Below, in pieces: positions 8,794-19,382 of a stretch of 64,000 bases of DNA; positions within the stretch are counted from its first letter, which is position 1, and the number at the start of each line of letters is the position of its first letter. The notes under the pieces were generated by a model that was not told the DNA's origin, did no database searches, and worked only from the letters and a program-made list of their open reading frames with translations. The stretch spans positions 1 through 64,000 of the forward strand of contig NZ_FQYT01000008.1 of the NCBI RefSeq assembly GCF_900141895.1. The letters run 5' to 3'. Made by a program: the position numbers and the translations under genes. The DNA is from Parasporobacterium paucivorans DSM 15970. GTDB lineage: Bacteria; Bacillota; Clostridia; Lachnospirales; Lachnospiraceae.

Positions 8794-8997
8794 TTAACTC
8801 TTTACTACAAATGTGATTTTGACATTTGCGCGATATTTTATTATTTTGCCGTCTTCCACAAGTGCCTGCAGGTTCTCCATGTTGACAGTCTTAATATTGT
8901 CGATAGTTTTTGCCGCCTCTGCCACTGCTTCTTTTGCAGCTGTTTCCCAGCTTTCAGAGGATTCCGCGATAAGTTCGATTACTTTTACAACTGACAT
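8794..8997 (-). CDS. Dodecin, flavin-storage protein
   Basis: The 67-residue sequence beginning MSVVKVIELIAESSESWE matches the dodecin family in length and pattern: a beta strand, one helix with AAKEAVAEAAKT, then two strands ending VKITFVV. Dodecins assemble into dodecamers that bind flavins or CoA. I place the start at 8997 because AAAGGGG is 8 nt upstream; the ATG at 9015 would add six residues without a ribosome binding site. Confidence 0.92.
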   Translation of the reverse strand: MSVVKVIELIAESSESWETAAKEAVAEAAKTIDNIKTVNMENLQALVEDGKIIKYRANVKITFVVKS

Positions 8998-9169: not shown

Positions 9170-9457
9170 CTATATTACCAGCCGATCTTTTATTTTCTGC
9201 ACTCTATTCCGACTTAGGGGTATTTCGTCCTTGAACCCCTCTACCCTGATTCTATAGGAGTTATCAACGCAAACCACCAGCCGTTCAATCTTTGCCATAT
9301 TGACAATAAAACATTTGTGGCATCTGAAAAAGTCCAGATAAGAAAGTTTCTTTTCCAATTCCTTCAGGGTTCCTCTAAGGAAAAAAGTGTCTTTTTTTGT
9401 ATGGATTTCAATATGCCCCGAGTTAATAGACAGACAACAGACATCGGACTTCATCAT
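9170..9457 (-). CDS. Stand-alone LytTR DNA-binding domain protein
   Basis: The 95 residues consist of a LytTR domain and almost nothing else. The protein has the strand-rich N-terminus, the FFRCHKCFIVNMAKI core (family: F-x-R-x-H-x-S-x-x-V-N) and the C-terminal PLSRNRVQKIKDRL segment. There is no receiver domain. It is the last gene of the seven-gene ABC/methyltransferase/FmdE operon, 24 bp after fmdE. LytTR proteins bind direct repeats, so this protein is unlikely to be the factor that binds the palindrome upstream of the operon. It could provide additional feedback control. Confidence 0.85.
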   Translation of the reverse strand: MMKSDVCCLSINSGHIEIHTKKDTFFLRGTLKELEKKLSYLDFFRCHKCFIVNMAKIERLVVCVDNSYRIRVEGFKDEIPLSRNRVQKIKDRLVI

Positions 9458-9481
9458 TCATGACGTTAATTCCTTCGCATA

Positions 9482-10036
9482 TTATAATGGAATTTTGCTG
9501 TAGTATTTACCGTTCGCACAAGATTTGCAAACTATCTTTCCGTCCTTCGCTACATCCCTTCCGTCCATGATTTTTTCATGACAGATTTCGCAATTGACAC
9601 TTCTGCTGGGCTTTCCAGGCATATCTTCCATTTTCAGGTCCATGCTCACCGGTTCCATCTTAAAGAGTTCTTCATCTTCGAATTCACCCCAGAAGGCCTC
9701 CAGGTCATCTGAAGGCTCCGGATTTCTGTCTGCATTCACGGCTAAGCGGATTCCTTTTTTTGTATCCATATCAATGAAAGAAGCCGCCATCTTCCCGTAA
9801 TCCAACCATTTCAGCCTTCTCTTCCCAAGGGAGCACCCTGTCACCGACTGGATCGCATCGGAGATGCATCGGTCATTTTCTACGTAAACGATAAAGTCCC
9901 TGTTTTTTTCCGGCTCATCAATCCCCAGATAATCCATGGCCGCCCGGGCCATCCGAACTCCCATGATAATACCTCCGCATAAATGTCCATGAAATTCGAT
10001 AGCATTCTCCAGATCACTTCTAAAACTGTTTTTCAC
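9482..10036 (-). CDS. FmdE family protein (formylmethanofuran dehydrogenase subunit E-like)
   Basis: The 184-residue protein starts at GTG 10036 (GGAG 9 nt upstream). It shows the FmdE N-domain motif FHGHLCGGIIMG, with His16, His18 and Cys20 as likely metal ligands, and VTGCSLGKRRL further on. A C-terminal zinc ribbon uses CEIC and CKSC. Bacterial FmdE proteins are not part of a methanofuran enzyme. They occur beside metal/corrinoid-type ABC transporters and molybdo-enzyme genes. Here it is cotranscribed with such a transporter and two SAM methyltransferases. A metal- or cofactor-handling role is inferred. Confidence 0.88.
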   Translation of the reverse strand: MKNSFRSDLENAIEFHGHLCGGIIMGVRMARAAMDYLGIDEPEKNRDFIVYVENDRCISDAIQSVTGCSLGKRRLKWLDYGKMAASFIDMDTKKGIRLAVNADRNPEPSDDLEAFWGEFEDEELFKMEPVSMDLKMEDMPGKPSRSVNCEICHEKIMDGRDVAKDGKIVCKSCANGKYYSKIPL

Positions 10037-10065
10037 TGTATTGATCTCCTCTCCGCATTTCCTTA

Positions 10066-10902
10066 CTAAACAGACCAGATTACATTGCCCTCTACAGAAC
10101 TGCCGCGGCTGATAAATTCATTTCTGAAGGCGTTGTTCTTTACATACTGTTCCACAATCCGATCCGTTGAATCAGGTAAATCTTTATAATTTTTCATCAT
10201 CAGCTGCAAATTTTCTGTAGCTTCACTGATCTTCATTTTCTTCGATTTTTCTATTTTTTTAATATCCATGGATGGCAGATAGCCCCATGCGTACAGAAGA
10301 TGGAATATATAAAATGGGTCGGAAGGAAATTCCGGCTTCTCCTCGTCAAATATGATCCTCCATAGCTCCTGCTGGTCCATGTCATACTTGCTGATGAATC
10401 CATTGTAAAAACAGCCATGAGATGAAGCCTCACACATTTTTTCCAATGTTTCAGCATTGCTGATACCAGGGGTCTTAATGGCGATTACCAGTCCGAACTT
10501 TTTCATCCAGTCCATTTCATTCAGGTAAATATCATCCCATGCCATGCATACCGTCTCGATATTATGAATATTCATAGCCTCTGCCCGCTTTTTCAATATA
10601 GACAGCATAACGGGAGAAGAATCGAGGGCAACGATTTTTCTGAATCGGCTGGACAGGGGAATGGCATAATTTCCGGTGCCGCAGCCAATATCGAGTAAAT
10701 CCGTACTCTTATCAATAAAAGATGTGGCCAGAATCTGATTAAGTATGGAATCGTTTTTGCTCTTATCTTCTGTCCTGGCGGCAAAACCCGGTGCCCGCTT
10801 ATCCCACCAGGAAGTATTGTCTGATATTCTCTGCCTCCTATAAATTGATCTTCTGTATGCTTCCGTCCATTCTTCTTCCCAGTATTTCGCATCCCTCCAC
10901 AT
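10066..10902 (-). CDS. SAM-dependent methyltransferase (class I)
   Basis: The 278-residue enzyme has motif I DIGCGTGNYAIPL and post-I VALDSSPVML. An N-terminal acidic Trp/Tyr-rich helix precedes them. The start at 10902 has GGAGG 7 nt upstream and lies 1 bp after the stop of the preceding methyltransferase, implying translational coupling. Its substrate is unknown. Such pairs of methyltransferases are repeatedly seen next to FmdE and FecCD-type importers, which suggests modification of an imported or secreted metal ligand. Confidence 0.85.
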   Translation of the reverse strand: MWRDAKYWEEEWTEAYRRSIYRRQRISDNTSWWDKRAPGFAARTEDKSKNDSILNQILATSFIDKSTDLLDIGCGTGNYAIPLSSRFRKIVALDSSPVMLSILKKRAEAMNIHNIETVCMAWDDIYLNEMDWMKKFGLVIAIKTPGISNAETLEKMCEASSHGCFYNGFISKYDMDQQELWRIIFDEEKPEFPSDPFYIFHLLYAWGYLPSMDIKKIEKSKKMKISEATENLQLMMKNYKDLPDSTDRIVEQYVKNNAFRNEFISRGSSVEGNVIWSV

Positions 10903-10903
10903 A

Positions 10904-11536
10904 TTATTCCTCCAATGTATCCTTAGCCAGAATGATCCATCGCCCTTCCTCGGGACTGTCAATTATCTCGTGTTTCCATCCTTTTTGGAAAAACAGCTTT
11001 TTATATTCCGCTGACGTCAGGGCTTTTGATTCATCATTCCTTTTTTCACCGAAAAACTGAAAGCCGTTCTGACGCATCTTATCCCGGATTTTTTCCCGGG
11101 TTTCCGGATTTCCAAGACCACACCCGACAAAAGTTTTTCCACCCGGTGCCAAGACACGGTATATCTCAGTAAACGCAGCTTCCTGGTTTTCCCAAAAAGG
11201 CATAGAACCCCGGCTTATAACCAGCTGAAATGTATCCTTTTCAAATGACATGGATTCGACATCCCCTACCCAAAAACTGGACCGTTCCATAAATCCGAGG
11301 TCGGCGGCACGTCTTTTTGCTGTTTCGACAGCAGAAGACTGGATATCCAGGAATGAAGCATTCATTTTTGTCTTCTTCAACAAGGAAAATCCCAGGTGCC
11401 CTCCCCCGCAGCCGATATCCAGGAATCTGCCTTCCTGCAGATTTATTTTTCTTAACAGGTTATCTGTTATTTCATCATAAATTGGATAAAAGATTGTTTC
11501 CGCAATATGATCAAAATCATACCCTGAGTCTTTCAT
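10904..11536 (-). CDS. SAM-dependent methyltransferase (class I, UbiE-like)
   Basis: The 210-residue enzyme contains motif I FLDIGCGGGHLGFSLL, the acidic SFLDIQSSAVETAK segment and VISRGSMPFWENQ. I chose the ATG at 11536 because AAGGAG is 10 nt upstream; the frame extends 10 residues further without support. It follows the ABC ATPase gene by 33 bp. Function beyond methyl transfer cannot be assigned. Confidence 0.85.
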   Translation of the reverse strand: MKDSGYDFDHIAETIFYPIYDEITDNLLRKINLQEGRFLDIGCGGGHLGFSLLKKTKMNASFLDIQSSAVETAKRRAADLGFMERSSFWVGDVESMSFEKDTFQLVISRGSMPFWENQEAAFTEIYRVLAPGGKTFVGCGLGNPETREKIRDKMRQNGFQFFGEKRNDESKALTSAEYKKLFFQKGWKHEIIDSPEEGRWIILAKDTLEE

Positions 11537-11569
11537 CTTCCTGTCTCCTTCCAAATCATGTTGCAAACC

Positions 11570-12340
11570 CTAGTACAAGGGTATGCATGTCTGCCTGTTA
11601 TCCTGTACATCCAGCAGGATTTTATTATCCACGCCATACATTTCATGGACACATTCCTCTGTCACAATATCGGTGCCAATTCCCACTCTCATCCTGCTCC
11701 GGTTTTCCATGATGAGCACCCGGCTCTCCGGGATAAACGCGTGGTCCGGATGATGGGTCGTCATAACAACTGTCTTCCCCATGGATACAAGCTTGCGGAT
11801 ATATGAAATCACCTTGGCATGATTTCCAAAGTCAAGATTGGAAACCGGCTCATCCAGAATCATCAAAGACGATCCCTGTACGATTGCCCTGGCCATTAAA
11901 ACCATCTGACGTTCTCCCCCGCTTATCTGCGTATAGTTCTTTTCAGCCAAATGTTCAATGTCCAACAGGCGCAGGGCATCCTGCACAGCCCGTATATCCT
12001 CTTCCCTGACCGCCCCGATACCGTTCTGATACGGATGTCTTCCCATCACAATAATTTCAAATGCCTTAAACGGGAATGGAGGAGTATGGCTTTGAGGGAC
12101 ATAGGATGTCACTTTTGCCAGATCCTTCCTGCTCCACTTTTCCAGCGGCTTATCCTGAACCAGAACCTGTCCGGAAACAGGTTTCAACAGGCCTAACAGG
12201 GTCTTGAACAAGGTGCTTTTTCCAATGCCGTTTGCTCCCAAAATACACCAGAGTTCGCCTTCGTTCATCTCAAAATTCAGATTTTCAACGACGGGTACCC
12301 CGTCATATCCGCAGCATAAATCCTTAACCTTTAGCAGCAT
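11570..12340 (-). CDS. ABC transporter ATPase, FepC/BtuD type
   Basis: The 256-residue ATPase has Walker A GANGIGKST (about residues 36-44), signature QISGGERQ, Walker B SLMILDEP and the H-loop TTHHPDHA. The SYVPQSH Q-loop is typical of iron-complex/cobalamin importers. It begins 1 bp after the permease stop codon. It energises uptake with the adjacent permease and binding protein. Confidence 0.92.
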   Translation of the reverse strand: MLLKVKDLCCGYDGVPVVENLNFEMNEGELWCILGANGIGKSTLFKTLLGLLKPVSGQVLVQDKPLEKWSRKDLAKVTSYVPQSHTPPFPFKAFEIIVMGRHPYQNGIGAVREEDIRAVQDALRLLDIEHLAEKNYTQISGGERQMVLMARAIVQGSSLMILDEPVSNLDFGNHAKVISYIRKLVSMGKTVVMTTHHPDHAFIPESRVLIMENRSRMRVGIGTDIVTEECVHEMYGVDNKILLDVQDNRQTCIPLY

Positions 12341-12341
12341 T

Positions 12342-13361
12342 TTACCACCCCTTATTCTTTTTGGTCAGCAGATACAGGAAAAACGGAAGACCCGCGAGGG
12401 ATGTAATGACTCCCAGCGGAATTTCCACAGCAAAAACGCTTCTGCAAGCGGTATCGATGATCAGCAGATAGCTGCATCCGAGCAGTAATGAAGCCGGAAT
12501 AAGCGCTTTGAAATTAGGACCCACAATCATGCGGGCCAAATGTGGGATTACCAGGCCGACCCATCCAATCATTCCACATAGCGAAACGGAAAATGCAGTC
12601 AGAATGGTTGCTGTAAATATAACCAGGAGCTGAAGACGTTTTGTATTGACACCCATGGTTTTCGCCTCTTCTTCCCCCAAAGCCAGAATATTAAGTTTCG
12701 AGGCACTGCAGATCAGAATAACCATGCAGAGAAGAAACGGGACGATCATCAGGAGAACATCTTTTGGGGTTATTTTCGAAAGGCTTCCTAAAAGCCAGAA
12801 AGTAATGGCCGGCAGTTTGTCCGTCGGGTCCGCTGCATATTTAATCAGGGAAATCATGGATTGAAACAGGCTGGAAACAATGATCCCTCCTAAAATCAGA
12901 AGGAACAGACTATCATCGCCTCTTCCGAACCGGGTACTTATGAACCAGGTGATAAGCACCGCAATCAGGCCGAATATAAAGGAAGTGGACTTTATTCCGA
13001 CTGCGCCAAAGGATAAAAGAATACCGAGTGACGCGCCAAACCCTGCTCCGGCGGCCGATCCAAGAATATCGGGAGACACCAGGGGATTTTTAAACATACC
13101 CTGGTATGAGGCGCCAGCCATAGAAAGTGCGCCTCCAATCAGCAATCCTCCCAATACCCGGGGAAGCCGTACCACAAAAAGAACCTGGGTAATTTCCGCC
13201 GGGACCTCCCTGCCTGCAAACGCCCGCAGGATATCATCCACCGGTATATAATACCGCCCGATAGCCAGTGACAGGATTGTGCTGATCAGCAACAATCCTC
13301 CCAGCAGCAGCAGTTTTAACTTTATTTTTTTTTGCTGAACTAAATATCTATCCATGTCCAT
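12342..13361 (-). CDS. ABC transporter permease, FecCD/BtuC family
   Basis: The 339-residue protein has about ten hydrophobic segments and FecCD hallmarks: RLPRVLGGLLIGGALSMAG near residue 65 and the C-terminal GMIGWVGLVIPHLARMIVG with the coupling-helix glycines. Importers with this fold carry siderophores, haem, cobalamin, molybdate/tungstate-like oxyanions or other metal complexes. The binding protein gene ends 23 bp upstream. Confidence 0.92.
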   Translation of the reverse strand: MDMDRYLVQQKKIKLKLLLLGGLLLISTILSLAIGRYYIPVDDILRAFAGREVPAEITQVLFVVRLPRVLGGLLIGGALSMAGASYQGMFKNPLVSPDILGSAAGAGFGASLGILLSFGAVGIKSTSFIFGLIAVLITWFISTRFGRGDDSLFLLILGGIIVSSLFQSMISLIKYAADPTDKLPAITFWLLGSLSKITPKDVLLMIVPFLLCMVILICSASKLNILALGEEEAKTMGVNTKRLQLLVIFTATILTAFSVSLCGMIGWVGLVIPHLARMIVGPNFKALIPASLLLGCSYLLIIDTACRSVFAVEIPLGVITSLAGLPFFLYLLTKKNKGW

Positions 13362-13384
13362 CCCGGTTTCTGTTCTGTTTTTTA

Positions 13385-14497
13385 CTATAAAGAATTCTCC
13401 AGAAGAGATTCTGTTTCCTTATCTGTAAGGTCGTAGTGATAAAATAAAGAATAAAATGTTTTTGCCTCTTCTTTGATATCATAGTCAACCATTTCAGGAT
13501 ATAGTATGGACTGACACCATTTTACACCTATGATTGTGTTGACACTTGGCGGACGGTCAAACCAGTTCTGCGGCACGGAGGGAGTCTGGTATACATGACC
13601 ATCCTTAACTGCCTGGATAACTGACCATTGTGAATCATTCATTATGGTATTGTAGCTTGCAGAATCGGCATTGCCATTATCCACGCATGAAATAATATAT
13701 TGCGGATCCCAGGAGATGATCTGCTCCATTGAAACTTCCGTTCTTCCATAACCCTTTGTTATTTCACAGTCGGCCACATTGATGCCGCCGCAAAGATCAA
13801 TCAGGCGGGAGTGTTCAGAACCGGATGGATCCGTATTAAGTCCAAGCTGTTCCTCTGCATAATATACTGATACCTTTTTTTCTTCAGGAATCGATGCTGC
13901 AATTTCCTTAGCGTGGTTTATGGTCTCCTCAGTATAGGCAGCCAGTTCTTCGCCTCTTTCTGCATTTCCTAACAGAGCACCAAGAAACCTGTATGAATCT
14001 GCCATAGCTTCAAAACTAGAATCAATATTAACTACCTGTATCCCCAATTTAGCCTGCAAAGCATCAGCCTGTGCAATACTGGCTTCATCGGTTCCGGTAC
14101 AGATTACGATATCCGGAGCTGTTTTGATGATTTCTTCCACATTTCCTTCATTGCCTTTTCCATACCATCCGCCCAGATTTGGCAGATTCTGATAATATTG
14201 TGTTGTATACATTTTTTCAGCATCTGATAATTCGTAATTCGTTACCGCCAACAGAGTATCATCAAATGTGTAAATATAATTTGTCCCTATTGGTCCACTG
14301 CAATATACACTTGTTATTGCTTCAGGAAGTACGATAGCCCTTCCTGCCATGTCTACAGAAGGACGCTCTACCTCGACAGCCGATGTCGTTTCTGCACTTT
14401 TAGTCTCCTTTGCTTCACCTGAGGACTGCCCACATCCGGCAGCCATCGCAACAACCATAGCCAGGATCAATATCATCCCAATAATTCTTTTTTTCAT
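13385..14497 (-). CDS. ABC transporter substrate-binding lipoprotein, FecB/TroA-like
   Basis: The 370-residue protein has a lipoprotein signal peptide ending in MAAGC (Cys22 would be lipidated) and a Thr/Ser/Glu-rich linker. A periplasmic-binding fold of the helical-backbone class follows (APDIVICTGTDEASI). The conserved-looking WFDRPPSVNTIIG near residue 310 is a pattern I associate with FecB-like proteins lying next to FmdE and DUF364 genes. It is the first gene of the seven-gene operon and is preceded by a palindrome/-10 promoter unit at 14538-14581. The ligand is probably a metal complex or oxyanion and is not determined. Confidence 0.88.
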   Translation of the reverse strand: MKKRIIGMILILAMVVAMAAGCGQSSGEAKETKSAETTSAVEVERPSVDMAGRAIVLPEAITSVYCSGPIGTNYIYTFDDTLLAVTNYELSDAEKMYTTQYYQNLPNLGGWYGKGNEGNVEEIIKTAPDIVICTGTDEASIAQADALQAKLGIQVVNIDSSFEAMADSYRFLGALLGNAERGEELAAYTEETINHAKEIAASIPEEKKVSVYYAEEQLGLNTDPSGSEHSRLIDLCGGINVADCEITKGYGRTEVSMEQIISWDPQYIISCVDNGNADSASYNTIMNDSQWSVIQAVKDGHVYQTPSVPQNWFDRPPSVNTIIGVKWCQSILYPEMVDYDIKEEAKTFYSLFYHYDLTDKETESLLENSL

Positions 14498-14537
14498 ACT
14501 ACTTCTCCTTCATATTTGTTCTCTTAATACGTTTCAG

Positions 14538-14581
14538 AATATATCCCATATTTCTTGATTTGTATGTTGTCTTAACAACAT
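14538..14581 (-). promoter_or_regulatory. Palindromic activator-type promoter 1 (ABC/FmdE operon)
   Basis: On the minus strand ATGTTGTTAAGACAACAT (14581-14564) is followed by exactly 20 nt and then TATATT (14543-14538). The palindrome core TGTTG-N6-CAACA has the 5-6-5 layout of CRP/FNR family sites. Its centre would lie at about -41.5 from a start near 14531, the class II position. No -35 hexamer is evident. The ABC operon start codon is 41 bp downstream of the -10. Confidence 0.7.
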
Positions 14582-14598
14582 TATTGAAGGATTCTTAT

Positions 14599-15360
14599 TC
14601 ACCTTCGTATGCATATCATTTCACCGCCATGCTTGAATATATTCATTTTTTTGCCTTCCTGGACTGCTTTCCATATCAGCTTCTCATCTGTAACAATAAA
14701 TCCTGCTATTATATAAACCCCATATTTAAACAGAACCTCAGAAATCGGCACACTGGGCCCTACCAGTATAATCCTGGCTTTTCTGGAAAGTTCAATAAGC
14801 CTTGGCATTGTTTTGTTTGTAAATGCCGTCCCGGTAATAAATACAAAATCTTGTTCCGGGAGCAGGTACTCACATGCGGAATCAGGGTAATCCCCTGCCC
14901 ATGGGTCTCTTTCAAGAACGGATAAATTGCATATGTCATGAAGCTTTTCCACCTCAGGAAAGTGTCCAATAACTGCAACCTTTTTGTTGACCAGATCTTC
15001 TGACAGCAGATTAAAAGCATTATTTTTTCCGTGCTCATGCTCCTTATTCAGGGTCAGACCCGGACTATCCGCACACTGTGGAGCAGTATTAAATGCTGAA
15101 TTTATTGCGGCCTGTCCCAGTGAAGCTTCCAACATATTCCACGATTTGGCATACTTTGCAAGTTCTTTCAGTTTCAATCCGCTGATTTCACCAATTTCCA
15201 ATCCTTTCTTACCGCCTTTTATTGTCTTTGCAACACCAATCCCATTTTCCGATTTTACCGCCGTCCAGGAGACCCCGAGCATGCATTCAAGGACTGTCAG
15301 ATCATCCGGTATGGAATCAATCAGATCATCGTATATTTCCCACACTTTCTTTTTCCCCAT
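14599..15360 (-). CDS. DUF364/DUF4213 protein, putative heavy-metal chelation (copy 2)
   Basis: The 253-residue protein has an N-terminal enolase-like DUF4213 part (VLECMLGVSWTAVK; AAINSAFN at about residue 85) and a C-terminal Rossmann-like DUF364 part (KVAVIGHFPEVEKL; DFVFITGTAFTNKTMPRL; VGPSVPISEVLF). The structurally characterised Desulfitobacterium homologue was proposed to act in heavy-metal chelation. It is the third gene of the operon DUF364-XdhC-DUF364, 9 bp after xdhC-like. It ends only 101 bp from the ABC operon start. Confidence 0.88.
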   Translation of the reverse strand: MGKKKVWEIYDDLIDSIPDDLTVLECMLGVSWTAVKSENGIGVAKTIKGGKKGLEIGEISGLKLKELAKYAKSWNMLEASLGQAAINSAFNTAPQCADSPGLTLNKEHEHGKNNAFNLLSEDLVNKKVAVIGHFPEVEKLHDICNLSVLERDPWAGDYPDSACEYLLPEQDFVFITGTAFTNKTMPRLIELSRKARIILVGPSVPISEVLFKYGVYIIAGFIVTDEKLIWKAVQEGKKMNIFKHGGEMICIRR

Positions 15361-15369
15361 TTCTCAATT

Positions 15370-16134
15370 TTATTTATTAAAAACCATGGTGCGCTTATAT
15401 TTTACTGCCTGAATTTCTGCCATAATCGATAAGGCAATTTCTGCCGTTTTTTTTCCTCCGAGATCCAATCCTATAGGAGAATGCACTCTTTTGATGAGTT
15501 CATCCGGCAAATTAAATGGCTCTAAATTTCTGAAATATTCAGCCACCCGTCGGCTATTTCCTAATACGCCGATGTAATTCGCCTGTGAGTCGATCACCGT
15601 ACGCAGCGCCTCTTCATCAAACTCATGGTTATGCGTAGCTATTACAATATATGTATTTTCAGCTATCGGATATGTACGAAGATTTTCAATTATATTCCCA
15701 GAAAGGAGCTCATGTGCTTCTGGGAATCGATCTTCAGTCAGCATCTCGGCTCTATTATCCAGTACGGTTGTCCTGTATCCAAGCATTCTTGCAATTTTAT
15801 GGATATTCAGGGATACAGTGCCTGCACCTGCTATTAGCAGATTATCCTGATTACAAAAAGCATTTATAAAAATTTCTATTACTCCCTCATCAACATAAAT
15901 GGTTTCTTTTCGTGAAAGACCTCTTTTTATGCATATCCGGCCCAGTTCGGCAGCTTTTTTCTCAAGAAGACCGTTTTCAATATTCCCCGCCAATACATTG
16001 CCCTGACTATCTGACACCATCATTTTACCTAAGCTGCAATTGTCTATGCCCGCAACATAAATAACTGTAATTAATGCTACTTCTTTATTAGATTCCTGGT
16101 ATTCAGATACAAGGCGCATTAAATTTTTTTCCAT
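15370..16134 (-). CDS. XdhC/CoxI family protein
   Basis: The 254-residue protein has a short CoxI-like N-domain (MRLVSEYQESNKEVALITVI) and an XdhC Rossmann domain with LLIAGAGTVSLNIHKIARML, TTVLDNRAEML and YIVIATHNHEFDEEAL. It ends in a HSPIGLDLGGKKTAEIALSIMAEI segment typical of the family. XdhC proteins sulfurate and insert molybdenum cofactor into hydroxylases. No molybdo-hydroxylase is in the window. The start at 16134 follows GAGGATG. Sandwiched between two DUF364 genes, it points to a metal-cofactor function for the whole operon. Confidence 0.9.
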   Translation of the reverse strand: MEKNLMRLVSEYQESNKEVALITVIYVAGIDNCSLGKMMVSDSQGNVLAGNIENGLLEKKAAELGRICIKRGLSRKETIYVDEGVIEIFINAFCNQDNLLIAGAGTVSLNIHKIARMLGYRTTVLDNRAEMLTEDRFPEAHELLSGNIIENLRTYPIAENTYIVIATHNHEFDEEALRTVIDSQANYIGVLGNSRRVAEYFRNLEPFNLPDELIKRVHSPIGLDLGGKKTAEIALSIMAEIQAVKYKRTMVFNK

Positions 16135-16215
16135 TATAATCATCCTCTGCTCTTTAAATTTCTGGATTAGAGGTGTAAGCCATTTATCGCAAACACCAGT
16201 CATATGAAATATTAT

Positions 16216-16956
16216 TTAAAGCGATTCAAAACACAGCCTTTTCAATCCCAGTATAGCGGCTGCACCGGCTATCGTTGTTCCATAAAATATGGTTTCCTTA
16301 TCCAGGTCCAGAAAATTAACGATTGAACCATTACAAATGGTGCTGCCTGTACACAGAATGACGTCGGCCCATTGAACAGCATCGCTGTAATCCTTAATTC
16401 CATCTTCCACCTGAACGCCGTATCTGATCTGCCCGATATTGTCAGGATTCAGATCCAGTACTCTGACCCGAAACCCATCTGCTAGATTCTCCAGCATGGC
16501 AGGCTGGTATCCCACCAATGTTATTTTGATATCTGCATACCGTTCTTTAAAATATGACTTGATTTTTTTGGCACATAACTCAGGCCCCTCGTTTTTACAG
16601 TGGATTGTATGGTCAGCCAGCCCCAGACTGCACATGACCGCATTCATGGCAGCAATGAAGATCCCCCGGCCGTGACCGCCGCTCGTCAGATCCATATCCA
16701 GTACCTGTGAAAGCTTCCCTTCAAATATGGCGGGCGCATCCGTAAAAGCCTGGCCATAAAATCCCTTGTATTCTGCCTGCAGGAGTACTTCTTTGCCCGT
16801 AATTATCGGGAAATCTGTGCGTTTTGTGTTCCCTATCGCCTCGTCAATGGACAGGGCTTCAGACCTGATGTTTACCTTATCCATTGAGAGCTGCTTTTCT
16901 TCGATTATTTTTGCAAACTCTTCTTTCAATTTAATAAATAATTTTTCCTGTGTCAT
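16216..16956 (-). CDS. DUF364 protein, putative heavy-metal chelation (copy 1)
   Basis: The 246-residue protein shares the DUF4213/DUF364 layout with the second copy. It has FYGQAFTDAP and GRGIFIAAMNAVMCSLGL in the N-domain, and KITLVGYQPAMLENLADGF, VLDLNPDNIG, VILCTGSTICNGSIVNFL and FYGTTIAGAAAILGL in the C-domain. It is the first gene of the operon, followed by XdhC after 81 bp. The start at 16956 has GAGG upstream. The two copies are diverged, so they may form a heteromer or act on different ligands. Confidence 0.87.
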   Translation of the reverse strand: MTQEKLFIKLKEEFAKIIEEKQLSMDKVNIRSEALSIDEAIGNTKRTDFPIITGKEVLLQAEYKGFYGQAFTDAPAIFEGKLSQVLDMDLTSGGHGRGIFIAAMNAVMCSLGLADHTIHCKNEGPELCAKKIKSYFKERYADIKITLVGYQPAMLENLADGFRVRVLDLNPDNIGQIRYGVQVEDGIKDYSDAVQWADVILCTGSTICNGSIVNFLDLDKETIFYGTTIAGAAAILGLKRLCFESL

Positions 16957-17015
16957 TCCAGGCTTCCTCTTTTCGTATACCGACTAATTCTCCATGCCAA
17001 TTTATCTTACCAACC

Positions 17016-17044
17016 AAAAAAAGACTGTTCCTAAGTCTTTTTTT
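17016..17044. terminator. Terminator-like hairpin in the leader of the DUF364 operon
   Basis: A perfect 11-bp stem, AAAAAAAGACT with its complement, closes a 7-nt loop. Read on the minus strand it ends in seven T. It lies between promoter 2 (start near 17098) and the DUF364 start at 16956, so it would be in the 5' leader and could attenuate transcription. The stem has only three G-C pairs. Confidence 0.5.
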
Positions 17045-17104
17045 GAAGCAGATTCAAGAAGGAGTATGAATCGCAAAATGATTTTTTTATCACTCACCTC
17101 TGTC

Positions 17105-17148
17105 AATATATCATCTCGGTTTTATTCTGTATGTTGGTCAGACAACAT
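17105..17148 (-). promoter_or_regulatory. Palindromic activator-type promoter 2 (DUF364-XdhC operon)
   Basis: Minus strand: ATGTTGTCTGACCAACAT (17148-17131), 20 nt, then TATATT (17110-17105). Spacing and -10 sequence are identical to promoter 1. The implied start is near 17098, about 140 bp before the first gene. Confidence 0.7.
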
Positions 17149-17164
17149 ATTTGTTTGCCATATG

Positions 17165-17208
17165 CTGTTGTTTGGACAACTGTAAATATTTTTTCATTAT
17201 GGTATCCT
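17165..17208 (+). promoter_or_regulatory. Palindromic activator-type promoter 3 (resolvase-like gene)
   Basis: Plus strand: CTGTTGTTTGGACAACTG (17165-17182), 20 nt, then TATCCT (17203-17208). The palindrome centre is 34 bp from that of promoter 2, so the two divergent promoters each have their own site. The gene starts 48 bp after the -10. Confidence 0.6.
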
Positions 17209-17255
17209 TATGAAAGTGCATTGCACTATATTTTTGAAAATCAAGGGAGAAAGAC

Positions 17256-17612
17256 ATGAAATACGCATATTTAAACACTTTTGTTACATCTCAGGGAGAA
17301 GACGTCCAAGGGGAATTAAATGAACTTCTTGCATACGCACCCGAGATACAGATTGAAACAATGTATACAACCAGAAAACAGTTAAATGCAATTCTGGATA
17401 TGCTGCAGCCGGGAGATACGCTTTATGTACATTCTTTTGCTCGTTTCTGCAGGGGATTGAAGGATCTTGTATATTTATCCGAAATTATAATCGATGAAAA
17501 AGGGGCAGCTTTAATCAGTTTACATGATGATTTTGATTCGACCACGGAAAAAGGGAAAATTGCAAAGGATGTATACGCAAGAGCAATTCCCCTTTTGATT
17601 TCGGACAATTAA
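17256..17612 (+). CDS. Resolvase-like N-terminal domain protein, probably catalytically dead
   Basis: The 118-residue protein has the fold pattern of the serine recombinase catalytic domain: PGDTLYVHSFARFCRGLKDL aligns with the G-D-x-L-x-x-x-x-x-D-R-x-x-R region, and FDSTTEKGKIAKDV with the later helix. In the N-terminal strand YAYLNTFVTSQ the usual R-V-S is replaced by Y-L-N, so the nucleophilic Ser and adjacent Arg are missing, as is the Asp of D-R. There is no DNA-binding domain. AAGGGAG precedes the ATG. It faces away from the DUF364 operon and shares its regulatory region. A regulatory or structural role is inferred rather than recombination. Confidence 0.75.
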   Translation: MKYAYLNTFVTSQGEDVQGELNELLAYAPEIQIETMYTTRKQLNAILDMLQPGDTLYVHSFARFCRGLKDLVYLSEIIIDEKGAALISLHDDFDSTTEKGKIAKDVYARAIPLLISDN

Positions 17613-17704
17613 TGCGTTGACTTTTCACAAAACCGGGTATGTCGTCCGTCACCAGGGCGAATCTCTAGTTTTTTAGTTTTTTCATAGGAGCCACCAGTTT
17701 ATTG

Positions 17705-17748
17705 GTGTTGTTTAACCAACATACAAAAATTCATAATCGTGATATTTT
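17705..17748 (+). promoter_or_regulatory. Palindromic activator-type promoter 4 (no protein gene downstream)
   Basis: Plus strand: GTGTTGTTTAACCAACAT (17705-17722), 20 nt, then TATTTT (17743-17748). It has the same arrangement as promoters 1-3, but no supported ORF follows. The implied start is near 17755. Confidence 0.55.
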
Positions 17749-17754
17749 TATGTG

Positions 17755-17845
17755 GGTGAGTATTAAAAACATATTTTGCTTTCATTTTGTTCCTTTCAAG
17801 ACAGAAAAAGGGTCGGTTCACGGTGCCAGCCCTTTTTCTGTGTGG
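17755..17845 (+). ncRNA. Candidate small RNA, about 90 nt
   Basis: The interval runs from the start predicted by promoter 4 to the end of the hairpin ACAGAAAAAGGG...CCCTTTTTCTGT (17801-17841). In that hairpin the GGG...CCC core is followed by TTTTT. No ribosome binding site with a supported ORF is seen inside. This is inferred from promoter and hairpin placement only. Confidence 0.3.
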
Positions 17846-17915
17846 ATTTTCATGATGAGTGGCCCCCTGATAAATTGGCAACGTCCTGATGTATCCATGT
17901 ATGACAAAACAGAAA

Positions 17916-17939
17916 AGCCCCTGCATTACCGCAAGGGCT
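17916..17939 (-). terminator. Terminator of the NRAMP-related gene
   Basis: AGCCCCTGC and GCAAGGGCT form a stem. On the minus strand it is followed by TTTTCTGTTTTGT. It lies 69 bp after the transporter stop codon. Confidence 0.65.
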
Positions 17940-18007
17940 AATTTTATTATTTTGCATTCGACAAACTTTATACCATCTTTATCTTTTAGATAGCCGGGGC
18001 TGCACTA

Positions 18008-19267
18008 TTATAAATTAAACAGCAACAGGATTCCGGCCGCCGTCATAACAGCTGTCGCGATAATGCTGACCGTATTGCTCAGCCATTTGTTTGTATAGTA
18101 CCCCATAACGGTTTTATTATTCGCAATAAGCAGTATCAAGATCATGAGAGGTGGGGCCATCAGGCCGTTGACCGCTGCGGCATAATATAGTGCCTTCATC
18201 GGATCGATCCCTATGAAGTTGATGGCGAGACCGATAATAGTAGCAATCGTAATTACCCCATAGAATCCATGGGCTTCTTTCAGCTTTTTCCCAAGACCTG
18301 TTTTCCAGCCAAGTGTCTCAGAAATCGCATATGATGATGAACCTGCAAGAACCGGCACCCCCAGAAGTCCCGTCCCGATAATTCCAATGGCAAACAGCAG
18401 GTAAGCAAAATCACCAGCCAACGGCCTGAGAGCCTGGGCTGCATCTGTTGCTGTATTTATAGAGGTGATTCCTTCTTTATGCAGGGTTCCTGCCGTTGTG
18501 ATGACGATCATGAAAGCAGTCAGAGCAGTAAAAACCATGCCGATTATGGTATCTATCCGCATGTCGTTTATATCCAGGTGACTGATCCCCGGCCTTCCGC
18601 TCCCAATGGCCTTTATTTTATATTCGACGATTTCCTTTTCTACCTCTTCATCTGCCTGCCAAAAAAACAGATAGGGCGAAATAGTGGTACCCAGAAACGC
18701 GACTATATTAAGAATTAAATCTTTAGAAAAATGCTCACTTGGTAAAAAAGTACCATGGAGAATGCCCCCCAAATCCTGCTTTACGACTACCGCTGTAGCA
18801 AAATAAGCGAAAAGTGAAAATGTGAGAATTATCAGCACCTTCGAATAAATACGGTAATCCAGAAATATTTCGAGGGTAAGTGTCAATGCGGTCATAATCA
18901 ATATCCAGAAAACGAAAGGCAGTCCAAAAACCAGCTGAGCCACAGCGGCCATTGCGCCCAAGTCAGCCCCGATATTTACCGTATTCGCAATGAAGAGCAG
19001 CACTATCGCGGAATAACTAATCCCTTTTGGATAATTTTCCCTCATGACTCCAGTTAGACCTTTTCCAGTCACTACGCCAATCCGGCCGCACATCTCCTGG
19101 ATTGCTATCGCAAAGATACACGAAATTGGGGACAGCCATAACAGACCGTAGCCAAACTTCGCTCCAGTCTGAGAATATGTCCCTATTCCCGAAGGATCGT
19201 CATCCGAAGCTCCTGTAATAATACCAGGGCCTAACTTTCTTAAGAATGCTTTGATTTTTTTAATCAT
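18008..19267 (-). CDS. NRAMP-related divalent metal transporter with atypical binding motif
   Basis: The 419-residue protein has about eleven membrane segments. The first helix carries GASDDDPSGIGTYSQTGA (residues 19-36) in place of the classical D-P-G-N motif. The sixth-helix region IGMVFTALTAFMIVITTAG lacks the A/C-x-x-M-P motif. Such NRAMP relatives include Mg2+-transporting (NRMT) and other divergent clades, so Mn2+/Fe2+ specificity should not be assumed. The start at 19267 has GGAGAG upstream; the longer frame to 19297 lacks one. It has its own terminator and is next to, but probably not in, the DUF364 regulon. Confidence 0.88.
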   Translation of the reverse strand: MIKKIKAFLRKLGPGIITGASDDDPSGIGTYSQTGAKFGYGLLWLSPISCIFAIAIQEMCGRIGVVTGKGLTGVMRENYPKGISYSAIVLLFIANTVNIGADLGAMAAVAQLVFGLPFVFWILIMTALTLTLEIFLDYRIYSKVLIILTFSLFAYFATAVVVKQDLGGILHGTFLPSEHFSKDLILNIVAFLGTTISPYLFFWQADEEVEKEIVEYKIKAIGSGRPGISHLDINDMRIDTIIGMVFTALTAFMIVITTAGTLHKEGITSINTATDAAQALRPLAGDFAYLLFAIGIIGTGLLGVPVLAGSSSYAISETLGWKTGLGKKLKEAHGFYGVITIATIIGLAINFIGIDPMKALYYAAAVNGLMAPPLMILILLIANNKTVMGYYTNKWLSNTVSIIATAVMTAAGILLLFNL

Positions 19268-19382
19268 CACACTACTCTCCTCATACAAATTGTACACCCT
19301 TTTTCAAAGACAATCAATACGGCCAAGTCCTTGTCTGCGCACTTCCGACTTTCGGACACCCACTTTCCACCAGTGAATCCAA

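Follow-up and report, generated by a model that had tools for sequence, protein, structure and literature searches.

Which metal or cofactor do two adjacent gene runs in Parasporobacterium paucivorans DSM 15970 serve, and do the two belong together? We examined positions 1 to 64,000 of contig NZ_FQYT01000008.1 (the window), in which a FecBCD-type importer, two methyltransferases, an FmdE protein, two DUF364 proteins and an XdhC-family protein are encoded side by side, and which a preliminary description had read as two operons with matching promoters that import and modify a metal complex for an unknown enzyme. We consider it likely that the two operons, together with a modABC-DUF364c operon elsewhere in the genome, constitute one molybdenum (possibly tungsten) regulon with two importers and cofactor maturation; the metal of the locus is probably molybdenum. 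The ten genes form two minus-strand runs, DUF364a-XdhC-DUF364b (16956-14599) and FecB-FecCD-FepC-MT1-MT2-FmdE-LytTR (14497-9170, the fec operon). Their coordinates were confirmed as first described, and so were the families named there, since all ten proteins score above the cut-off for the corresponding family in a Pfam search:

16216..16956, minus strand: DUF364a, 246 amino acids, of a subfamily often found beside modABC (Pfam DUF364, structural model, gene neighbourhoods)
15370..16203, minus strand: XdhC-family protein, start possibly at 16134 (Pfam XdhC_C and XdhC_CoxI)
14599..15360, minus strand: DUF364b, with an N-terminal DUF4213 domain (Pfam DUF364 and DUF4213, match to 3l5o)
13385..14497, minus strand: FecB-type lipoprotein, Peripla_BP_2, a relative of MolA and YiuA (Pfam, sequence and structure comparison)
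12342..13361, minus strand: FecCD permease, in a molybdenum-associated clade (Pfam, tree)
11570..12340, minus strand: FepC-type ATPase, ABC_tran (Pfam)
10904..11566, minus strand: MT1, class I S-adenosylmethionine (SAM) methyltransferase (Pfam)
10066..10902, minus strand: MT2, class I SAM methyltransferase (Pfam)
9482..10036, minus strand: FmdE with a C-terminal dksA/traR-type zinc finger (Pfam)
9170..9457, minus strand: stand-alone LytTR DNA-binding domain, final gene of the fec run (Pfam)

The window genes are read as molybdenum genes mainly because the operator in front of them, TGTTGKNNNNMCAACATAC, also precedes modABC-DUF364c. This extended palindrome is exact at just four places in the 2.44-Mb genome (before the fec operon, DUF364a and modA, and at an orphan site, 17706), and the short pattern TGTTGKNNNNMCAACA is exact at six, namely 17132, 14565, the orphan 17706, before modA (C15), C8:58349 and within a gene on C32; the C8 site has one mismatch to the extended motif. 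The copy on C15, another contig, precedes modA-modB-modC-DUF364c, a molybdate importer whose ModA exceeds its NCBIfam cut-off (67.1 vs 62.5 bits), whose ModB falls just short of two (209.6 vs 210.3 and 179.3 vs 182.6), and whose operon closes with DUF364c, 77% identical to DUF364a. The sites in and around the two window operons are as follows:

17132..17147, minus strand: operator TGTTGTCTGACCAACA of the DUF364a-XdhC-DUF364b operon (exact match)
17166..17181, minus strand: second, weaker operator-like dyad AGTTGTCCAAACAACA, 34 bp upstream of operator TGTTGTCTGACCAACA (one mismatch)
17105..17110, minus strand: -10-like hexamer TATATT of the DUF364a promoter, 29 bp from the operator centre (spacing analysis)
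14565..14580, minus strand: operator TGTTGTTAAGACAACA of the fec operon (exact match)
14538..14543, minus strand: -10-like hexamer TATATT of the fec promoter, 29 bp from the operator centre (spacing analysis)
17706..17721, plus strand: orphan operator TGTTGTTTAACCAACA (exact match)
17743..17748, plus strand: -10-like hexamer TATTTT of the orphan promoter (spacing analysis)

Read toward the gene, the centre of the dyad lies 29 bp from a -10-like hexamer at all five sites: TATATT (fec), TATATT (DUF364a), TAAACT (modA), TATTTT (orphan) and TAATTT (C8). With the direction reversed, a TA...T hexamer is found at this distance at one site in five, and at the coding match on C32 in neither direction; its background frequency is 0.016 in sampled stretches of the genome and 0.024 in these intergenic stretches. 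The promoters thus match as first described, in an exact palindrome and in its equal distance to the hexamer. If transcription is assumed to start 6-7 bp past the -10 hexamer (the start sites are themselves inferred), the dyad would be centred at about -41.5. This is the class II position of CRP/FNR activators, and the 5-6-5 dyad, so placed, appears to fit that layout. The site given for Desulfovibrio HcpR in an excerpt of PMC1274295, wTGTGAnnnnnnTCACAw, is likewise CRP-like.

Four matches to HTH_Crp_2 in the genome are over the cut-off. The gene for one such CRP-family protein adjoins the operator site on C8; another, on C24, precedes hcp, whose promoter carries TGTTGCGTATGCAACA and then TAGAAT at 29 bp. 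Their recognition helices read NRSALSHEL (C8) and NRSALTREL (C24), the CRP-family protein on C44 being unlike both. In the excerpt of Rodionov et al. (PMC1274295), base G3 goes with residue 180 (R) and base A6 with residue 181 (E), and HcpR2 proteins with Ser-181 are described from two clostridia, where the motifs deviate. Because of the helices and these residue-base links, we infer that the switch at the operator is likely the C8 CRP-family protein, or HcpR itself. One could also speculate that the operator is simply an HcpR-type (nitric oxide or redox) site, and that what the regulon answers is nitrosative or redox stress, in which it repairs or resupplies molybdenum and Fe-S cofactors, and not a shortage of molybdenum. 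We regard this as unlikely, although the hcp gene of this genome has TGTTGCGTATGCAACA at the identical spacing and adjoins a CRP-family gene with a near-identical helix, and although in locus L069 (1437-7614) hcp, MT2, FmdE and FecBCD are co-directional behind an HcpR-like site, TGTAACGTGCGTTACA, an arrangement that suggests a link between the FmdE-MT2 cassette and nitrosative stress. At base six of the half site, hcp has C where the three operons have T or G, and no modABC operon is known to be under a nitric oxide regulator.

Two other candidate regulators were set aside. A Fur-family gene adjoins modA, and its orthologue lies near molybdenum genes in L110, L135 and L126 and beside FecBCD-MT2 in L031; it is a weak candidate only, because the dyad is CRP-like and not Fur-like in symmetry. 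The LytTR protein at the end of the fec operon is not favoured, LytTR sites usually being direct repeats and the site here a palindrome.

The permease was placed by a maximum-likelihood tree of 74 FecCD rows, MolB not among them. At 1e-60 the FecCD profile matches 179 of 391 genomes of the class, this one included. The 40 case loci are the best consecutive places not yet sampled (one is the genome's own paralogue on C27), and 20 lower-scoring controls were hand-picked from the listed rows (2.9e-82 to 4.7e-77), of which 18 are in the tree, L221 and L222 having given no FecCD row; L111, L132 and L109 joined via the DUF364a search, which biases L111 and L109 toward a molybdenum label. A clade of 44 rows, with support 100/100, holds the window permease, all 40 cases and relatives from L071, L111 and L132, while the 18 controls and 12 FecCD proteins from FmdE-MT2 cassettes lie outside it. 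Molybdenum markers (DUF364, XdhC, ModA/B/E, Mob/Moc, MoaA/C, MoeA, YqeB/C or MogA within 5 kb) stand beside 15 of the 44 clade rows vs 1 of the 30 others (Fisher p 0.0017, window left out, on loci that are not independent events); within the same distance, DUF364 is found at 9 vs 0 rows, NTPase_1/CobW-like genes at 11 vs 0 and Nif-type genes at 5 vs 0. Among the commonest Pfam families listed for the 95 co-directional neighbour proteins of the cases, DUF4213 (7) and DUF364 (6) are level with Big_5 (7) and Oxidored_nitro (6); for the 62 such neighbours of the 20 controls, cobalamin families dominate among those listed. Single loci illustrate the association: XdhC-NTPase-DUF364b-FecCD-FepC-FecB in L189, together with an NTP transferase gene with a ModE-like tail (50.7 bits, cut-off 98.5); FecB and then a ModE-type helix-turn-helix protein in L180 (47.6 bits, cut-off 98.5); a MobA-like gene beside the clade transporter in L201; and DUF364b-FecBCD in L179.

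Two observations on these neighbourhoods are recorded in their own right. In L189, 786-1787 encodes what looks like a fusion of a MocA-like nucleotidyltransferase with a ModE-like DNA-binding domain, each scoring below cut-off. In L071 (14419-16850), L177, L213 and L214, NifH-like and NifD/E-like genes directly adjoin same-clade transporters. Such neighbours were rejected as the true partners of the transporter here: Oxidored_nitro matches this genome at four places only, all of them in the nif cluster, a single stretch of C7.

By sequence, the binding protein FecB matches 4pag (1e-55), 4ovk, 4hn9 and HI1472 MolA (3psa, 8e-14). Its structural model is modest (mean predicted local distance difference test score, pLDDT, 71.1; three-row alignment), and among the structures listed it gives Z 27.6 to 4pag, 25.1 to 4hn9, 24.1 to 4ovk, 23.2 to 4mo9 and 22.1 to 2etv, ahead of MolA (21.7 over 293 residues, 3.6 A) and YiuA (21.6). 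The modelled fold allows molybdate or a chelate and decides neither. According to excerpts of PMC4031551, MolBCA is a low-affinity molybdate importer alongside ModABC, and in MolA the same fold carries molybdate without a chelator. Among the matches listed, the permease and the ATPase score best in NCBIfam with heme, siderophore and B12 types, always below cut-off, which would suit a fec operon that is an ordinary iron-siderophore, nickel or cobalamin importer and merely by chance a neighbour of a Mo-hydroxylase maturation operon. This we hold to be very unlikely: its operator and spacing are identical to those of modABC; no TGATAATNATTATCA-like Fur box is found at the fec or DUF364a promoter at up to three mismatches; neither promoter has a match to Rfam at the gathering threshold, a cobalamin riboswitch included (under permissive settings, 16900-18010 yielded a single match, below threshold and not at the promoters); and the window FecCD lies outside the B12-associated controls.

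NCBIfam cut-offs are in fact unreached, among the matches listed, by FecB, FecCD, FepC, both methyltransferases, XdhC and LytTR, and FmdE, DUF364a and DUF364b have no NCBIfam match there, so that names such as iron, heme or B12 importer and xanthine dehydrogenase accessory protein hold at family level only. XdhC has both of its Pfam domains (XdhC_C 135.3 bits, XdhC_CoxI 28.1) and fails two curated equivalog cut-offs (TIGR02964, 66.3 vs 161.6; NF045664, 149.5 vs 350). FmdE has PF02663 at 116.9 bits and the zinc finger at 38.2, both over cut-off, and matches 2gvi, 3d00 and 2glz in the structure database. The start of MT2 is most likely 10902, within a longest open reading frame (ORF) that begins at 10962.

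Of the two DUF364 proteins, DUF364b scores 127.8 bits vs a 23-bit Pfam cut-off (and 9.5e-53 to 3l5o, Dhaf4260), while DUF364a reaches just 30.6 bits; its AlphaFold model (mean pLDDT 93.7) gives Z 16.3 to 3npg and 14.7 to 3l5o, the pair of DUF364 structures so far solved, with 10.6 for the next best, and it is thus predicted to have the overall DUF364 fold. An alignment scan of named genomes found at least 45 DUF364a loci, counted as loci and not as independent events. Genes of modA/modB type lie within 4 kb at 21 of these, vs none of 22 MT2 and none of 58 FecCD loci (Fisher p about 1e-11, on the same non-independent counts); among the 21, L124 has a tup cluster of tungstate type (TupA 217.5 bits, cut-off 400) with FmdE nearby. 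At other loci DUF364a stands beside a different ABC transporter, which is SsuA-like (below cut-off) in L112 and L138 and similar by gene order in L121, L128, L129 and L137. L138, from a Dehalococcoidales metagenome-assembled genome (MAG), reads MocA-SsuA-like transporter-DUF364a-DUF364b-YqeB-YqeC-XdhC, with cut-offs passed by MocA, YqeB and YqeC and failed by XdhC. DUF364b adjoins DUF364a in L106 and precedes modABC-DUF364a in L107. Excerpts of the 2010 crystal structure report (PMC2954201) connect DUF364 by genome context with iron, tungstate, vanadium and molybdate transport, make a broad proposal of heavy-metal chelation, and suggest that the protein condenses or hydrolyses a pterin- or siderophore-like ligand.

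MT2 is rare, with relatives in 5 of 249 other genomes of the family (1e-10; 24-29% identity) and in 23 of 390 other genomes of the class (1e-15), and in other clostridia-class genomes its neighbours are often FmdE and a FecBCD of a different clade, with which it forms a cassette. In L109 (Clostridium ragsdalei), a single stretch reads modB-modC-modD-FmdE-MT2-FecCD-FepC-FecB-MOSC-FecB-DUF1847-DUF364a, with ModD over its cut-off, and in L111 (a Peptococcaceae MAG) a transporter of the molybdenum clade is found in the order FecCD-FepC-FecB-DUF364a-MoeA (two ORFs)-MT2. The window fec operon looks like a molybdenum-clade transporter combined with the FmdE-MT2 cassette. Relatives of MT1 lie before modABC in L110, before DUF364a in L121 and after FecBCD in L178 (333-349 bits vs 43 for the next best, with a profile built from them and the window MT1), and SAM methyltransferases recur beside molybdenum genes or the transporter clade in L107, L110, L121, L178 and L182. 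As a separate observation, L110 (1072-2856) and L121 (10511-12328) each encode an AmmeMemoRadiSam-like radical SAM protein (below cut-off) whose C-terminal half resembles the window FecB in a phmmer comparison, beside MT1 or DUF364a and molybdenum transport genes.

The recurring methyltransferases also bear on the form in which molybdenum enters. It is possible, if somewhat unlikely, that FecBCD imports a molybdenum chelate (a catecholate molybdophore or similar), that FmdE, MT1, MT2 and DUF364 release, trim or methylate its ligand, and that the metal serves Mo-nitrogenase and Mo-hydroxylases. The genome has a nif cluster, the fold group of FecB binds metal chelates as well as molybdate, and the excerpted proposal of a pterin- or siderophore-like ligand for DUF364 (PMC2954201) would fit. 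MolA, however, carries bare molybdate with the same fold (excerpt of PMC4031551), and ligand-making genes were not noticed in the ORF list of the window, where, as in the genome at large, no search was aimed at them.

The genome encodes possible clients for molybdenum. Mo-hydroxylases match at three places, a pair on C19 and a single one on C29, and Pfam confirms two of the three; an XdhC-family gene (272.9 bits, cut-off 350) lies at a distance of about 6.6 kb from the C29 gene; a molybdopterin oxidoreductase and its Fe-S subunit share a 20-kb stretch with moaA and moaC; and there are two MoeA genes and a nif cluster running from nifH to nifNB. The preliminary description, which saw no molybdo-enzyme, is therefore right for the window and wrong for the genome. 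Its metal complex for an unknown enzyme survives as a metal system, narrowed to molybdenum (or tungsten), and loses the unknown client, which is unnecessary because the genome encodes Mo-hydroxylases, a molybdopterin oxidoreductase and nif genes. Its view that the two operons form one metal or cofactor system is supported by the common operator and promoter layout and by families that co-occur elsewhere (L189, L179, L111 and L109), even if the exact gene set of the window was at no locus found. A tungsten aldehyde oxidoreductase of the AFOR type was rejected as a client, as AFOR_N has no match genome-wide, and molybdenum is the better guess for the metal than tungsten.

Beyond the common operator and the gene associations, the proposed mechanism is as follows. 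A CRP/FNR-family activator bound at about -41.5 would turn on all three operons together, most likely when molybdenum is short or when molybdenum enzymes are needed. ModABC and the FecBCD-type system would then import one and the same element, the latter as a type II system working like Haemophilus MolBCA. XdhC and the DUF364 pair may assist in delivering molybdenum to the cofactor of the Mo-hydroxylases, whose genes lie elsewhere in the genome, or in maturing that cofactor. FmdE, MT1 and MT2 would be accessory, perhaps acting on an imported or intracellular molybdenum ligand, although this chemistry is a guess.

Several observations weigh against reading the locus as part of a molybdenum regulon. 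At up to one mismatch, TGTTGKNNNNMCAACA has 24 strand hits vs 70 for its backward control, and at up to two mismatches TGTTGKNNNNMCAACATAC has 19 vs 16; because the mismatch-tolerant motif is no commoner than the control, the case for the operator is carried by the exact matches, by where they lie and by their spacing to the -10 hexamer. Beyond the window, the one-mismatch places of TGTTGKNNNNMCAACA number five, all within ORFs. Upstream of 45 DUF364a directons there is no exact TGTTG-N6-CAACA, the best being a one-mismatch site at a contig start (L102), and none of 22 MT2 directons has a TGTTG dyad at the -10 distance, a layout in which any exact dyad is found at 8 of 473 directon starts. The evidence for the operator comes from this genome only. 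No modA/B gene lies within 4 kb at 24 of the 45 DUF364a loci. The position of the window permease within its clade is not firmly resolved, Nif-type genes stand beside 5 of the 44 clade rows, and 24 of the 44 have neither molybdenum nor Nif markers. By fold and by sequence FecB is also like iron-siderophore binders such as YiuA, and five entries of other or unknown ligand outrank MolA; because MolA and YiuA tie, we make no ligand call for FecB. Finally, the FecCD permeases in the FmdE-MT2 cassettes of other genomes belong to a different clade; the window operon is therefore mixed, and some of its genes might serve another purpose.

Downstream of three of the five sites (DUF364a leader, orphan and C8), predicted transcripts of 81-90 nt end in a terminator-like hairpin, with fold z of -2.5 to -3.0, hairpin included. 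Two of these lie in the region upstream of DUF364a:

17752..17841, plus strand: predicted short RNA, 90 nt, with a strong terminator-like hairpin at its end (sequence, fold)
17016..17044, minus strand: terminator-like hairpin and T run in the DUF364a leader (sequence, fold)

The short transcripts could be small RNAs, an attenuator (in the case of DUF364a) or leader-peptide genes, and the DUF364a leader hairpin is possibly an attenuator or the end of a short RNA; Rfam yields nothing for them at its thresholds, and we do not claim an RNA family, because similarity among the three is weak. One could go further and propose a molybdenum regulon under a CRP/HcpR paralogue that includes the short terminated RNAs (17752-17841, the DUF364a leader and C8), in which DUF364, FmdE and the two methyltransferases would be previously unrecognised molybdenum-ligand enzymes between uptake and cofactor insertion, but we consider this extension doubtful. 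The next gene past the orphan transcript (18008-19297, minus strand, upstream of the locus) is convergent with it and encodes an NRAMP-type metal transporter (PF01566, 290.6 bits). Between the promoter of the DUF364a operon and the orphan site lies a serine-recombinase fragment of 118 amino acids (17256-17612, plus strand; Resolvase N-terminal domain), possibly a mobile-element remnant, and downstream of LytTR there is a dodecin gene (8794-8997, minus strand; PF07311, 81.6 bits).

The operator common with modABC and the mod genes at 21 of 45 relatives sharpen the earlier DUF364 context into a testable claim, that the DUF364a subfamily acts in molybdenum or tungsten handling; the same claim extends, more weakly, to FmdE and the methyltransferases. 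The FecCD clade may be a candidate group of molybdenum or tungsten importers in anaerobes, and the findings point to a CRP-family switch for molybdenum genes.

Compared with known systems, both window DUF364 proteins resemble Dhaf4260 and other PF04016 proteins in exceeding the Pfam cut-off, and DUF364a in its predicted fold, whereas DUF4213 is unmatched in DUF364a, whose subfamily shows invariant residues of its own, e.g. H119-C120, C128 and C242 (32 sequences). XdhC beside DUF364a and DUF364b, as in L138, recalls the XdhC and YqeB-YqeC-MocA maturation genes of (selenium-dependent) Mo-hydroxylases, but the window runs are without YqeB, YqeC and MocA, and the window XdhC is below the named equivalog cut-offs. 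FmdE has both the PF02663 and the zinc finger domains of its kind; it differs in lying in an importer operon, with no formylmethanofuran dehydrogenase gene noticed nearby. The HcpR regulon offers a 5-6-5 dyad at about -41.5, a similar half site and a similar recognition helix, whereas the targets here are molybdenum genes, the half site is TGTTG[TG] vs TGTTGC before hcp of this genome, and the consensus given for HcpR2 in the excerpt of PMC1274295 is GTAAC. ModABC, which has the operator and a closing DUF364 gene in common with the window operons, is a type I system with a BPD_transp_1 permease and SBP_bac_11, as opposed to FecCD and Peripla_BP_2. The molybdate/tungstate importer MolBCA of Haemophilus influenzae (HI1470-1472) differs in that the window binding protein is of lipoprotein type, with a putative ligand, and has nearer sequence matches in 4pag, 4ovk and 4hn9 than in MolA, and in that the window operon adds two methyltransferases, FmdE and LytTR. 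It shares with the window system a FecCD/BtuC-type permease, a separate ATPase, a Peripla_BP_2 protein (the MolA match of FecB given above) and, probably, its place as a second molybdenum importer besides ModABC.

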